A stretch of DNA of 34,436 bases, from contig JAHECY010000041.1 of the NCBI GenBank assembly GCA_024641505.1, positions 1-34,436 of the forward strand, given 5' to 3'. The translations under genes were made by a program, and so were the position numbers. Under the pieces are notes generated by a model. The model searched no databases. It had not been told where the DNA came from and saw only the letters and a list, made by a program, of their open reading frames with translations. Origin of the DNA: Gammaproteobacteria bacterium (GTDB taxonomy: Bacteria; Pseudomonadota; Gammaproteobacteria; SG8-11). The stretch's first letter is position 1, and the number at the start of each line of letters is the position of its first letter. Shown here one piece after another: positions 31,482-34,436 of this stretch.

Positions 31482-32669
31482 TCAGCGCAACGCTTCGAAC
31501 CCGTGCGCCAGGTCGTTCTGAATATCCGCAACATCTTCCAGACCGACCGCGATTCGCAATAAGCCGTCACTGATTCCCGCCGCCTGCTTTTCTTCCGGGC
31601 TGAGACGGCCGTGGGTGGTGGTCGCCGGATGCGTCAAGGTGGTTTTGGTATCGCCCAGATTCGCGGTGATCGACACCAACCGGGTGGCATCGACGAATTT
31701 CCAGGCTTCCGCCTTGCCACCGGCGATCTCGAACGACAGGACACCACCAAAATGTTTCTGTTGCCGACACGCCAGATCATGCTGCGGATGACTGGGCAGT
31801 CCACTGAAATTTACCTGCCGCACCACGGATTGCTGTTCCAGCCACAGGGCTATGCGCAACGCGTTGTCACTGTGGGCACGCATGCGCAGACTCAAGGTTT
31901 CCAGGCCCTTGAGAAACACCCAGGCGTTAAACGGACTCATGGTGGGTCCGGCAGTACGCAAAAAGCCGAAGACGTCTTTACCCACCAGCTGTTCAGTGCC
32001 CACGACCGCACCGCCGATGCAACGGCCTTGACCATCCAGATATTTGGTTGCCGAGTGAATTACGATGTCCGCCCCCATTGCCAGCGGCTGCTGCAGCGCC
32101 GGCGTCAAAAAACAGTTATCCACCACGAGCAGGCAGTGGTGTTTGTGGGCCAATTGTGCCAGCGCCTGAATATCCGCAAGCTCCGACAAGGGATTGGATG
32201 GTGTCTCCAGAAACAACAACCGTGTCTGCGGTCGAATCGCCGCTTCCCAGGCCGCCATATCACTGAGGGCCACGAAAGTGGTGTCTACGCCGAATTTTTT
32301 AAGATAGTTATTGAACAACACGACCGTGGTGCCGAAAACCGAGCGTGAAGAAACGATGTGATCCCCGGACTTGAGGATTCCCATGCACGTTGAGAGAATC
32401 GCCGCCATGCCGGATGACGTGGCCACGCAGCGCTCACCACCCTCCAGGGCAGCCAGCCTTTCCTCGAAGGTACGCACTGTCGGATTGGTAAAACGTGAAT
32501 AAATATTACCCGGGATGTCACCGGCAAATCGTGCCGCTGCTTCCGCGGCACTGGCGAACACAAAACTTGACGTGGGAAAAATGGGCTCGCCCTGCTCGCC
32601 TTCAGCCGTGCGTCGATGGCCGGCACGCACCGCCCGCGTATCAAAACCGTAATTGTCATTTTCTGTCAT
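31482..32669 (-). CDS. metZ: O-succinylhomoserine sulfhydrylase MetZ
   Basis: This 395-residue PLP enzyme of the Cys/Met metabolism family makes homocysteine directly from O-succinylhomoserine and sulfide. Motifs are YSRFTNPTVRTFEERLAALE, ATSSGMAAI and the PLP-Lys region HSATKYLDGQGR. The sequence fits MetZ of Pseudomonas rather than MetB/MetC. ATG 32669 has an AGGTG site at good spacing; the in-frame ATG 32684 lacks one. The purF-metZ order is conserved in related bacteria. A SAM-II-like riboswitch precedes it. Confidence 0.93.
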   Translation of the reverse strand: MTENDNYGFDTRAVRAGHRRTAEGEQGEPIFPTSSFVFASAAEAAARFAGDIPGNIYSRFTNPTVRTFEERLAALEGGERCVATSSGMAAILSTCMGILKSGDHIVSSRSVFGTTVVLFNNYLKKFGVDTTFVALSDMAAWEAAIRPQTRLLFLETPSNPLSELADIQALAQLAHKHHCLLVVDNCFLTPALQQPLAMGADIVIHSATKYLDGQGRCIGGAVVGTEQLVGKDVFGFLRTAGPTMSPFNAWVFLKGLETLSLRMRAHSDNALRIALWLEQQSVVRQVNFSGLPSHPQHDLACRQQKHFGGVLSFEIAGGKAEAWKFVDATRLVSITANLGDTKTTLTHPATTTHGRLSPEEKQAAGISDGLLRIAVGLEDVADIQNDLAHGFEALR

Positions 32670-32708
32670 AACAGCACCTGTCATTTATCGTGAGTAAAAT
32701 GCGGGCAC

Positions 32709-32740
32709 AAAAAAACCCGCTCAGCATAGCTAGGCAGGTT
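32709..32740 (-). terminator. Intrinsic terminator in the metZ leader
   Basis: On the minus strand AACCTGCCTAGC, loop TAT and GCTGAGCGGGTT form a stem of up to 12 pairs with one C-A mismatch and two G-T pairs, followed by a run of T (32713-32709). It starts 8 nt after the riboswitch-like aptamer and ends before the metZ ribosome-binding site. It is therefore placed to attenuate metZ transcription when SAM is bound. Confidence 0.75.
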
Positions 32741-32747
32741 GCCATCG

Positions 32748-32798
32748 CTTTAGCTGAATTTGTTACGCGCCCGCAAGCTGATTTCTCAAATCGGCGCT
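32748..32798 (-). ncRNA. SAM-II-type riboswitch (SAM_alpha) upstream of metZ
   Basis: The minus strand shows the order of elements of the SAM-II class: P1 strand GCGCC, then GATTTG, GCTTGC, P1 strand GGCGCG, TAACAAAT, and the 3' pseudoknot strand AGCTAAAG. GCGCC pairs with GGCGC. GATTTG pairs with CAAATT, where the known metX SAM-II has AUUUA with UAAAU, so the pair covaries. Length is about 51 nt, as in the class. Position between promoter and metZ fits SAM feedback on methionine synthesis. The class call rests on recall of the SAM-II consensus, without a covariance search. Confidence 0.8.
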
Positions 32799-32807
32799 AT
32801 AAACCAG

Positions 32808-32837
32808 AGATTAATGGAACTCCCGGCTGCTTGTCAA
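32808..32837 (-). promoter_or_regulatory. Candidate metZ promoter
   Basis: TTGACA (32837-32832) is a perfect -35 just 5 nt past the purF stop, with TAATCT (32813-32808) as a modest -10 at 18-bp spacing. The predicted start near 32801 is 3 nt before the riboswitch P1 strand, which supports both calls. Confidence 0.6.
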
Positions 32838-32841
32838 CCAC

Positions 32842-34359
32842 TCAAGCGGTATTATAAAGCTCAATCACGGAATCCTCGCCATCCTTGTCCTGACGCTTGC
32901 GCTTGGCGCCGTCATTGCGCTGGACTTCCAATTGCCGCAGATAGGCCTCCGTGACATCGCCGGTAATGTAATTGCCATCAAATACCGAAGTATCGAATTG
33001 CTTGATATTCTTGTTACCCCGCCGCGCCGCCTCGATGAGATCCTCAATATCCTGAAACACCAGCCAATCAGCCCCTATTTCCTGACACATTTGCTCCACC
33101 GTCCGGCCATGGCCTACCAGCTCACTGGCGGTGGGCATATCGATGCCATACACATTGGGATAACGTACCGGCGGCGCCGCGGATGCAAAATAGACTTTTT
33201 TGGCGCCGGCCTCCCTGGCCATCTGAATAATTTGCATGGAGGTGGTACCACGCACGATGGAATCATCCACCAACAGTACATTCTTGCCGTTGAATTCCAG
33301 GTCAATGGCGTTGAGTTTCTGGCGTACGGATTTGCGCCGCTCCTTCTGTCCGGGCATGATAAAGGTGCGACCGATATAACGGTTCTTGATAAAACCTTCG
33401 CGGTACTTAACTCCCAGTTTATACGACAATTGCAGGGCCGAGGTACGACTGGTATCGGGAATCGGGATAATGACATCGATGTCGTGATCCGGCAGCACCT
33501 TGAGAATCTTGTTCGCCAGAAATTCACCCATACGTAATCGGGCGCGGTATACCGAAATGCCGTCGATGATAGAATCGGGGCGGGCAAAATAGACGTACTC
33601 GAAAATACACGGCGCGTAATGCACTTCCTGGGCGCATTGCCTGGTGTGCAGCCGACCATGGATGTCGATAAAGATCGCCTCACCCGGCTCTACATCACGC
33701 ACCACCTCAAAACCCAGAGCGTCAATGGCGACACTTTCCGAGGCGACGATATATTCTGGACCATTGGGTGTAGCGCGCTTGCCGAAAACGATCGGCCGGA
33801 TACCATTGGGATCCCGGAACGCGACGATGCCATAACCAATAATCATTACCACCACGGCATAGGCGCCGCGGCAACGTTCATGTACCCGCGTCACCGCCTG
33901 AAAGATATCGTCCTTGGTGATCTGGATCTTGCCATGCGCCTGCAACTCGTGAGCAAACACATTGAGGAGTATTTCCGAGTCGGAATCAGTGTTGATGTGG
34001 CGCAGGTCGTCCCGAAAAACTTCCTTTTTCAACTCGGCGGCATTGGTCAGGTTGCCGTTATGCGCCAGCGAAATGCCAAACGGTGAATTTACAAAGAATG
34101 GCTGGGCTTCCGCGGAAGAAAATGAACCCGCGGTAGGATAGCGCACGTGGCCGATGCCCATATTGCCCAACAGGCGCAACATGTGGCGTGTGCGGAACAC
34201 ATCACGCACCAGACCGTTGCTCTTGCGCAAGTACAACCGCCCTTCGTCACAGGTCATGATTCCCGCCGCATCCTGGCCACGATGCTGCAACACCGTCAAT
34301 CCGTCGTACAGGGCTTGATTAACGTTGGATTGTCCAAAAATTCCGATAATGCCACACAT
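32842..34359 (-). CDS. purF: Amidophosphoribosyltransferase PurF
   Basis: This 505-residue enzyme performs the first committed step of purine synthesis, transferring glutamine amide nitrogen to PRPP. The start is fixed by [10 protein letters not shown], where Cys2 is the glutaminase nucleophile after Met removal, and by a GAGG site. The PRPP loop [14 protein letters not shown] is visible, and [14 protein letters not shown] is conserved. Length equals E. coli PurF (505). There is no propeptide. Confidence 0.97.
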
Positions 34360-34436
34360 GAGTAACCTCGCCGGGAGCACGGGCAGGCGCACCGCCTGTA
34401 GGAAAACGCCATTTTACCACCATAGGTAATGGGCAG
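34360..34436 (-). other. purF upstream region at the window edge
   Basis: The last 77 bp contain a short hairpin CAGGCG-CAC-CGCCTG (34384-34398) and the purF ribosome-binding site. In related genomes cvpA lies here, but I cannot recognise its end in this short stretch. Confidence 0.3.

Follow-up and report, generated by a model that had tools for sequence, protein, structure and literature searches.

The window, by which we mean the whole analysed stretch of 34,436 nucleotides, carries purF and metZ in succession on its minus strand, and the gap between the two genes is filled by a compact regulatory region. A promoter, a SAM-II aptamer and an intrinsic terminator all lie on the minus strand of this gap, within 32709-32837. 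This confirms the packing described in the original prediction, which also placed a SAM-II aptamer and a terminator ahead of metZ. In the direction of transcription, the features are:

32842-34392, minus strand: purF, the upstream neighbour, with its stop at 32842 (TIGR01134, 528 bits)
32832-32837, minus strand: promoter -35 box TTGACA, read from sequence, 5 nt past the purF stop codon
32808-32813, minus strand: promoter -10 box TAATCT, read from sequence, with a spacer of 18 nt
32733-32807, minus strand: SAM-II aptamer, RF00521 model positions 1-79 (28.0 bits where the cut-off is 36; E 2.2e-4 in a search of 501 bases)
32793-32797, minus strand: 5' strand of P1, GCGCC, from the alignment pairing
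32778-32782, minus strand: 5' strand of P2b (A32782, U32781, C32780, G32778), partners 32744-32747
32772-32774, minus strand: 5' strand of P2a, GCG, partners C32753, G32754 and C32756
32767-32771, minus strand: 3' strand of P1, GGCGC, from the alignment pairing
32753-32758, minus strand: UUCAGC, a possible antiterminator strand that pairs with 32720-32725 (GCUGAG) in a folding prediction
32746-32756, minus strand: SAM-pocket strand CAGCUAAAGCG, complementary to the terminator 5' arm in many relatives
32715-32739, minus strand: intrinsic terminator hairpin ACCUGCcUAGC-UAU-GCUgAGCGGGU, 10 pairs and one mismatch
32709-32715, minus strand: U-tract of 7 U, read from sequence
31482-32669, minus strand: metZ, O-succinylhomoserine sulfhydrylase (NF006003, 699.7 bits against 522)

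The probable start of metZ is the ATG at 32669 behind AGGTG, rather than 32684. This codon lies 15 nt inside the longest metZ frame, and in a locus of the same genus (L020) the protein begins at the equivalent position. The listed purF frame opens at GTG 34392, and an ATG near 34359 yields MCGIIGIF, which we take to be the usual purF start with the catalytic cysteine. Judging from position, transcription is expected to start near 32801, a few bases ahead of P1. A generic scan called no promoter in the leader, because the -10 box agrees with TATAAT at just three of six positions, and the sole "terminator" it returned is another hairpin, not 32739-32715; both real elements were overlooked. In relatives' leaders TAnnCT is seen by eye at 17-18 nt spacing, and a TTGACA-like -35 box (at least five of six positions) occupies the expected place in 72 of 91 metZ leaders; a control stretch lying 200 nt farther upstream yields 12.

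At Rfam gathering scores nothing is reported in the window. At a relaxed threshold RF00521 gives the best match, significant and of full model length. The original prediction had named the SAM_alpha covariance model as its check; the full-length minus-strand match stood, but the score stayed under the cut-off. Across the whole genome (4.78 Mb) the window's match, with E 4.9e-4, is the sole one to RF00521 with E below 0.5, the next having 0.889. No Rfam SAM-V model matched in 32500-33000 up to E 10, and an isrK match, at 11.2 bits where 50 are required, was rejected as chance. We assign the element to SAM-II by features and not by score, because a gathering score is a database threshold and not a biological feature; the pocket elements GAUUUG, UUGC and GCUAAA are all present in the window.

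Applied alone to 55 genomes, the window's own included, RF00521 exceeds its cut-off in 4 and gives weaker matches in many more. A purF-metZ leader like that of the window is found in many of these loci, for example at 31.3 bits in a genome of the same genus (G001) and at 36.4 bits, above the cut-off and again in the purF-metZ gap, in one of the same family (G002). Common to the leaders are GCGCCGAUUUGA, UCAGCUUGCGGGCGC and CAGCUAAAG, along with a terminator whose pattern is ACCUGCUUUAGC to GCGGGUUUUUUU. Comparison with other gammaproteobacterial metZ leaders, suggested at the outset, showed that many relatives have this leader at the same site. From 19 such leaders, including that of the window, a model was built (R1) whose only structure is P1. 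Its score on the window (32737-32800, 77.2 bits) is no independent evidence, since the window is among its 19 source sequences. Of 274 genomes sampled evenly from the window's class, 133 contain R1 matches (E at most 0.001), while RF00521 reaches its cut-off in 24 and E 1e-4 in 71; metZ itself (NF006003, E at most 1e-140) is present in 181. The 36-bit cut-off looks too strict for this lineage, because only 24 genomes reach it compared with the 133 with an R1 match. Very probably, the element in the purF-metZ gap is a genuine SAM-II riboswitch, and its kind is an ordinary one.

For a tally, R1 was run on 136 of 166 loci, after duplicate copies of a site and two sets of weak RF00521 loci (L002-L007 and L026-L036) had been set aside; the run yielded 145 aptamers from 123 genomes and 78 families, none dropped afterwards and the 19 source sequences of R1 included. 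The gene downstream is most often metZ, which follows 91 of them, one per genome, in 57 families; the order purF-aptamer-metZ is seen in 57 genomes of 40 families, counted where purF lies within the fetched stretch. The other downstream genes include metK (12), metF, metN and metE (4 each), and metX, bhmt and an OAH-type sulfhydrylase (2 each), all named from their resemblance to reference proteins, one or two for each gene, whose own names were assigned from sequence. In 42 rows the gene is neither metZ nor metK; for 22 of these the references used identify no methionine gene, 13 matching unknown or AAA-type references and 9 being unplaced. The NCBIfam check covered metZ, purF and three other proteins of the window. 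SAM-II precedes metK in L063, L069, L073, L089, L091, L093, L096, L099, L102, L122, L123 and L126.

Tandem SAM-II-like aptamers about 90-120 nt apart were seen at L094, L095, L104, L113, L115, L124, L133, L212, L245 and L258. The terminator mostly follows the first aptamer of such a pair and the second lies near the start codon; several of these loci precede non-methionine genes, such as those of a MoxR-like AAA protein and of short unknown proteins. One genome (G250) has nine R1 matches. Tandem SAM-II is already on record, with 44 examples given in the accessible text of PMC9481103.

Covariation was assessed in an alignment of 106 aptamers (104 distinct sequences), in which 90.9% of structure cells pair. 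Changes on both sides are observed in 8 of 13 pairs, against a shuffled mean of 3.4, and the cells with such changes number 65 versus 26.3 in shuffles, with none of 500 shuffles as high. Structures slid along the alignment are 26-44% paired and have at most 4 pairs with both-side changes. In P1, 95.8% of cells are paired and five of six pairs show both-side changes, in an alignment made with a P1-aware model, a circumstance that helps P1 and gives no advantage to P2a or P2b. P2a is paired in 99.7% of cells, one pair being changed on both sides in 2 sequences. For P2b the figure is 76.4%, with both-side changes in two of four pairs, and at three of the four 23-46 of 104 sequences are unpaired; in the window all four P2b pairs can form. 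Support is firm for P1 and P2a and modest for P2b. The covarying P2-type helix of the original prediction proved right in kind: the pair of columns 33-54 is G-C in 101 of the 104 distinct sequences and A-U in 2. The minimum free energy of the leader, calculated for a fold without the pseudoknot, is no better than that of shuffles (z 0.02).

The terminator hairpin of the window has a computed energy of -11.9 kcal/mol, or -12.7 with one pair more. Downstream of 109 of the 145 aptamers, and in 77 of the 91 metZ leaders, there is a terminator-like hairpin and its U-tract; the rule-based call found none after the other 36 aptamers. After the U-tract, a GCCYG motif appears by eye to be kept in many leaders (32702-32708 in the window, and relatives), where it could pair with the terminator 3' arm.

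An uninterrupted 9-nt partner of the pocket strand GCUAAAGCG, G-U pairs allowed, lies within the next 80 nt for 62 of 145 aptamers, and dinucleotide shuffles give a mean of 3.2 and a highest value of 7. In leaders inspected by eye, the terminator 5' arm is the usual partner, and the partner tracks changes in the pocket strand: GCUAAAACG goes with CGUUUUAGU in L156 and L157, and GCUAAAGAC with GUUUUUAGC in L150. The window has no 9-nt partner of the pocket strand downstream, its longest run being 5. Among control segments, GAUUUG shows no excess (a partner of at least 7 nt in 36 of 143, versus 49.6 in shuffles). The segment around UUGC does (93 of 144 versus 34.9), mostly with the terminator 3' arm via G-U pairs, and therefore the pocket strand is not alone in being complementary to the platform. 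In the window the folding prediction offers UUCAGC paired with GCUGAG, formed in the nascent transcript at 79-82 nt and replaced by the terminator by 85 nt; this alternative helix is 1.3 kcal/mol short of the terminator state, both predictions being made without the pseudoknot. In the metK leader L073, the terminator 3' arm repeats the aptamer's GCUAAAGCG.

We consider it highly likely that a SAM-II riboswitch at this site switches metZ off by transcription attenuation. The computations show the aptamer's family and covariation, the terminator and the synteny; SAM binding, the direction of the switch and the antiterminator are inferred parts of the following model. A sigma-70-type promoter just past purF would produce a leader starting a few bases before P1. 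When SAM is low, the would-be pocket-lining strand would pair with terminator sequences, the terminator would fail and metZ would be read. In many relatives this pairing would involve GCUAAAGCG and the terminator 5' arm; in the window folding alone predicts it, between UUCAGC and GCUGAG in the 3' arm. Once SAM suffices, the aptamer would close into the P1/P2 pseudoknot and occupy the pocket strand, upon which the hairpin 32739-32715 would form and polymerase would stop in the U-tract, leaving metZ off. The same hairpin would also cut read-through from purF.

The aptamer might instead act mainly on translation or RNA stability, the terminator being constitutive. According to the accessible text of PMC9373788, some SAM-II riboswitches mask the Shine-Dalgarno sequence, and the metA terminator of Sinorhizobium is not predicted to be SAM-dependent; a textbook antiterminator is, moreover, weak in the window. 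However, the ribosome site of metZ lies about 60 nt downstream of the aptamer, past the terminator, and terminators together with a complementary pocket strand recur in many metZ leaders. Such control of metZ appears unlikely to us. For attenuation there are described precedents. The metZ riboswitch of Sinorhizobium meliloti, as presented in the same text, likewise has SAM-II before metZ and a predicted SAM-dependent terminator, and the sRNA RZ rises with high SAM; it differs in being alphaproteobacterial, and the likeness is one of description rather than of compared platform sequences. The accessible part of PMC2258182 describes the terminator type as more frequent than any other SAM-II type in alpha- and betaproteobacteria.

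A related pseudoknot with another ligand, for example SAH, or SAM and SAH alike, is a further alternative. A few pocket changes have sufficed to alter the ligand of aptamer classes, as in the spermidine variant of SAM-I (PMC10853860, in the text available), but here the pocket is conserved. GCUAAA is invariant in all 106 aligned aptamers, and GAUUU, UUGC and GCUAAA, the SAM-contact bases according to the available text of PMC11508383 (the mapping onto alignment columns being ours), are unchanged or nearly so. The downstream genes, too, are mostly methionine and SAM genes, and we find a ligand other than SAM very unlikely.

How the element came to this site is a separate question, since a recent move from an alphaproteobacterium would be compatible with attenuation. 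In a sample of the phylum, R1 matches occur in 64 of 299 genomes. Most matches outside the class score 28-36 bits, which argues against such a move; its support comes from four out-of-class genomes (G282, G289, G510 and G543) whose aptamers reach 64-72 bits with R1, as high as within the class. Each of these four (L167, L170, L171 and L173) carries the gamma-type aptamer and a second, lower-scoring one. The distance between aptamers agrees weakly yet positively with that between MetZ proteins in 73 of the 91 metZ loci, namely those that alignment A2 contains and for which an open frame was identified (Mantel r 0.20, a value reached in 2 of 2000 permutations; r 0.11 for pairs more than 15% apart). 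One recent transfer looks unlikely because 133 of 274 class genomes carry the element, mostly before metZ, frequently between purF and metZ, and in dozens of families. Because aptamer distance tracks MetZ distance weakly, older exchanges may have taken place. The spread within the class, the purF-aptamer-metZ synteny in 57 genomes of 40 families, the out-of-class scores and the Mantel result rule out transfer from alphaproteobacteria as the main reading, and a recent arrival is scarcely credible to us. The original prediction had suggested a transfer of the regulatory element.

Of 119 stretches listed in a pattern scan of named genomes, 80 were examined, with 81 sites. Among the matches listed are betaproteobacteria (Rhodocyclaceae, Zoogloea, Thauera, Nitrosospira, Herminiimonas and others), gammaproteobacteria (Halomonas, Chromatiales, Legionellaceae, Thiogranum) and some alphaproteobacteria (Bosea, Microvirga, Kiloniellaceae). 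Among the matches listed, the core also turns up in a handful of assembled genomes assigned to other phyla, which may have been binned wrongly. At the 81 sites, again among the matches listed, metX (22) and metZ (16) lead, and 29 are without gene assignment.

SAM-II beyond the alphaproteobacteria, presented as an oddity in the original prediction, is neither new nor rare, given the 133 of 274 class genomes and published gamma- and betaproteobacterial cases. The accessible text of Corbino 2005 (PMC1273637) lists it in Coxiella, Bordetella and Bacteroides, Barrick and Breaker 2007, as far as accessible, treat gammaproteobacterial SAM-II as sporadic and perhaps transferred, and Meyer 2009, in the accessible portion, gives Alpha-, Beta- and Gammaproteobacteria. 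The window element is one instance of a version of SAM-II that is widespread among proteobacteria and poorly annotated; it is unusual only in how far its lineage stayed unannotated. With SAM-II/SAM_alpha as described in the available text of PMC1273637 and in RF00521 it shares P1, L1 GAUUUG, CUUGC, GCUAAA, P2a and the P2 pseudoknot, as well as a promoter a few bases before P1 and a terminator before a methionine gene. Elements of the window type differ from RF00521 in a P2b that is shorter and weaker than the 6-pair pseudoknot we read in its consensus, in a near-invariant GCGCC/GGCGC P1, and in scores mostly under the Rfam cut-off.

Two elements described earlier may belong here as well. In the accessible text of Leyn 2014 (PMC4239095), SAM_alpha is reported only in Rhizobiales and Rhodobacterales among about 200 genomes, and a new "metXZ" element is reported in betaproteobacteria, mostly before metX but before metZ in Methylophilales and Nitrosospira. 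A pseudoknot is among its six conserved regions and a terminator is present; in that text it is not named SAM-II. Our SAM-II loci show the same distribution among the matches listed, lying before metX in records of Burkholderiales/Rhodocyclales type and before metZ in Nitrosospira and Methylophilales. Judged by this pattern of genes and taxa rather than by comparison of sequences, the betaproteobacterial metXZ element is very probably SAM-II. Betaproteobacterial SAM-II before metX or metZ, likely metXZ, was noted at L150, L159, L177, L178, L196, L199, L205, L244, L261 and others.

The second element is Rfam RF02424 (Bp2_287), filed as an sRNA. The printed consensus, when reverse-complemented, reads GCGTCGATTTGATTTCAGCTTGCGGACGC and further on CAGCTAAAGCG, a SAM-II core; GATTTGA, CTTGC and GCTAAAG stand in SAM-II order, as in none of 20000 shuffles. 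RF02424 also matches, always under its cut-off, across from the SAM-II strand in the window and at L094, L212, L258 and G470 (L315, G470:C26). In G470, R1 at 42409-42469 on the plus strand overlaps RF02424 at 42375-42524 on the minus strand. No RF02424 match above the cut-off was found in 80 genomes of one family or in 8 other sequences. Because of the printed consensus and the opposite-strand overlaps at G470, L094, L212 and L258, we suggest that RF02424 is probably the antisense strand of a SAM-II riboswitch, filed on the wrong strand. That the window itself encodes a plus-strand small RNA of this family, as the match at 32723-32793 (16.9 bits, E 0.15) might imply, has next to no probability, the score being far under the cut-off of 70, the promoter, terminator and genes all indicating the minus strand, and the consensus reading and the overlaps ruling out RF02424 as a real plus-strand sRNA. 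In the accessible text of Khoo 2012 (PMC3521395), Bp2_Cand287 is drawn beside purF, metZ and metX, the same kind of site as that of the window's SAM-II, and is suggested to be a cis element for methionine metabolism; it differs in that it was classed as an sRNA and its model follows the other strand. In the literature searched, which includes few subscription papers, no paper ties metXZ or Bp2_287 to SAM-II.

Taken as a whole, we lean slightly toward a wider reading, in which the window would belong to a proteobacteria-wide and mostly unannotated SAM-II subclass, old at the purF-metZ site, with the SAM-contacting strand GCUAAAGCG itself as the antiterminator, making ligand binding and the decision on the gene rivals for one set of bases, and with metXZ and RF02424 as the same riboswitch. 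A single Rfam cut-off conceals most of these elements, and one Rfam family is probably on the wrong strand. SAM-II, until now "alphaproteobacterial, sporadic elsewhere", becomes a methionine switch that is common in gamma- and betaproteobacteria, offering a regulator for metZ, metX, metK and metF leaders in which the regulon study of about 200 genomes, in its accessible text (PMC4239095), had no SAM-II. It may also serve as a compact model of how a pseudoknot aptamer could drive a terminator through its own pocket strand.
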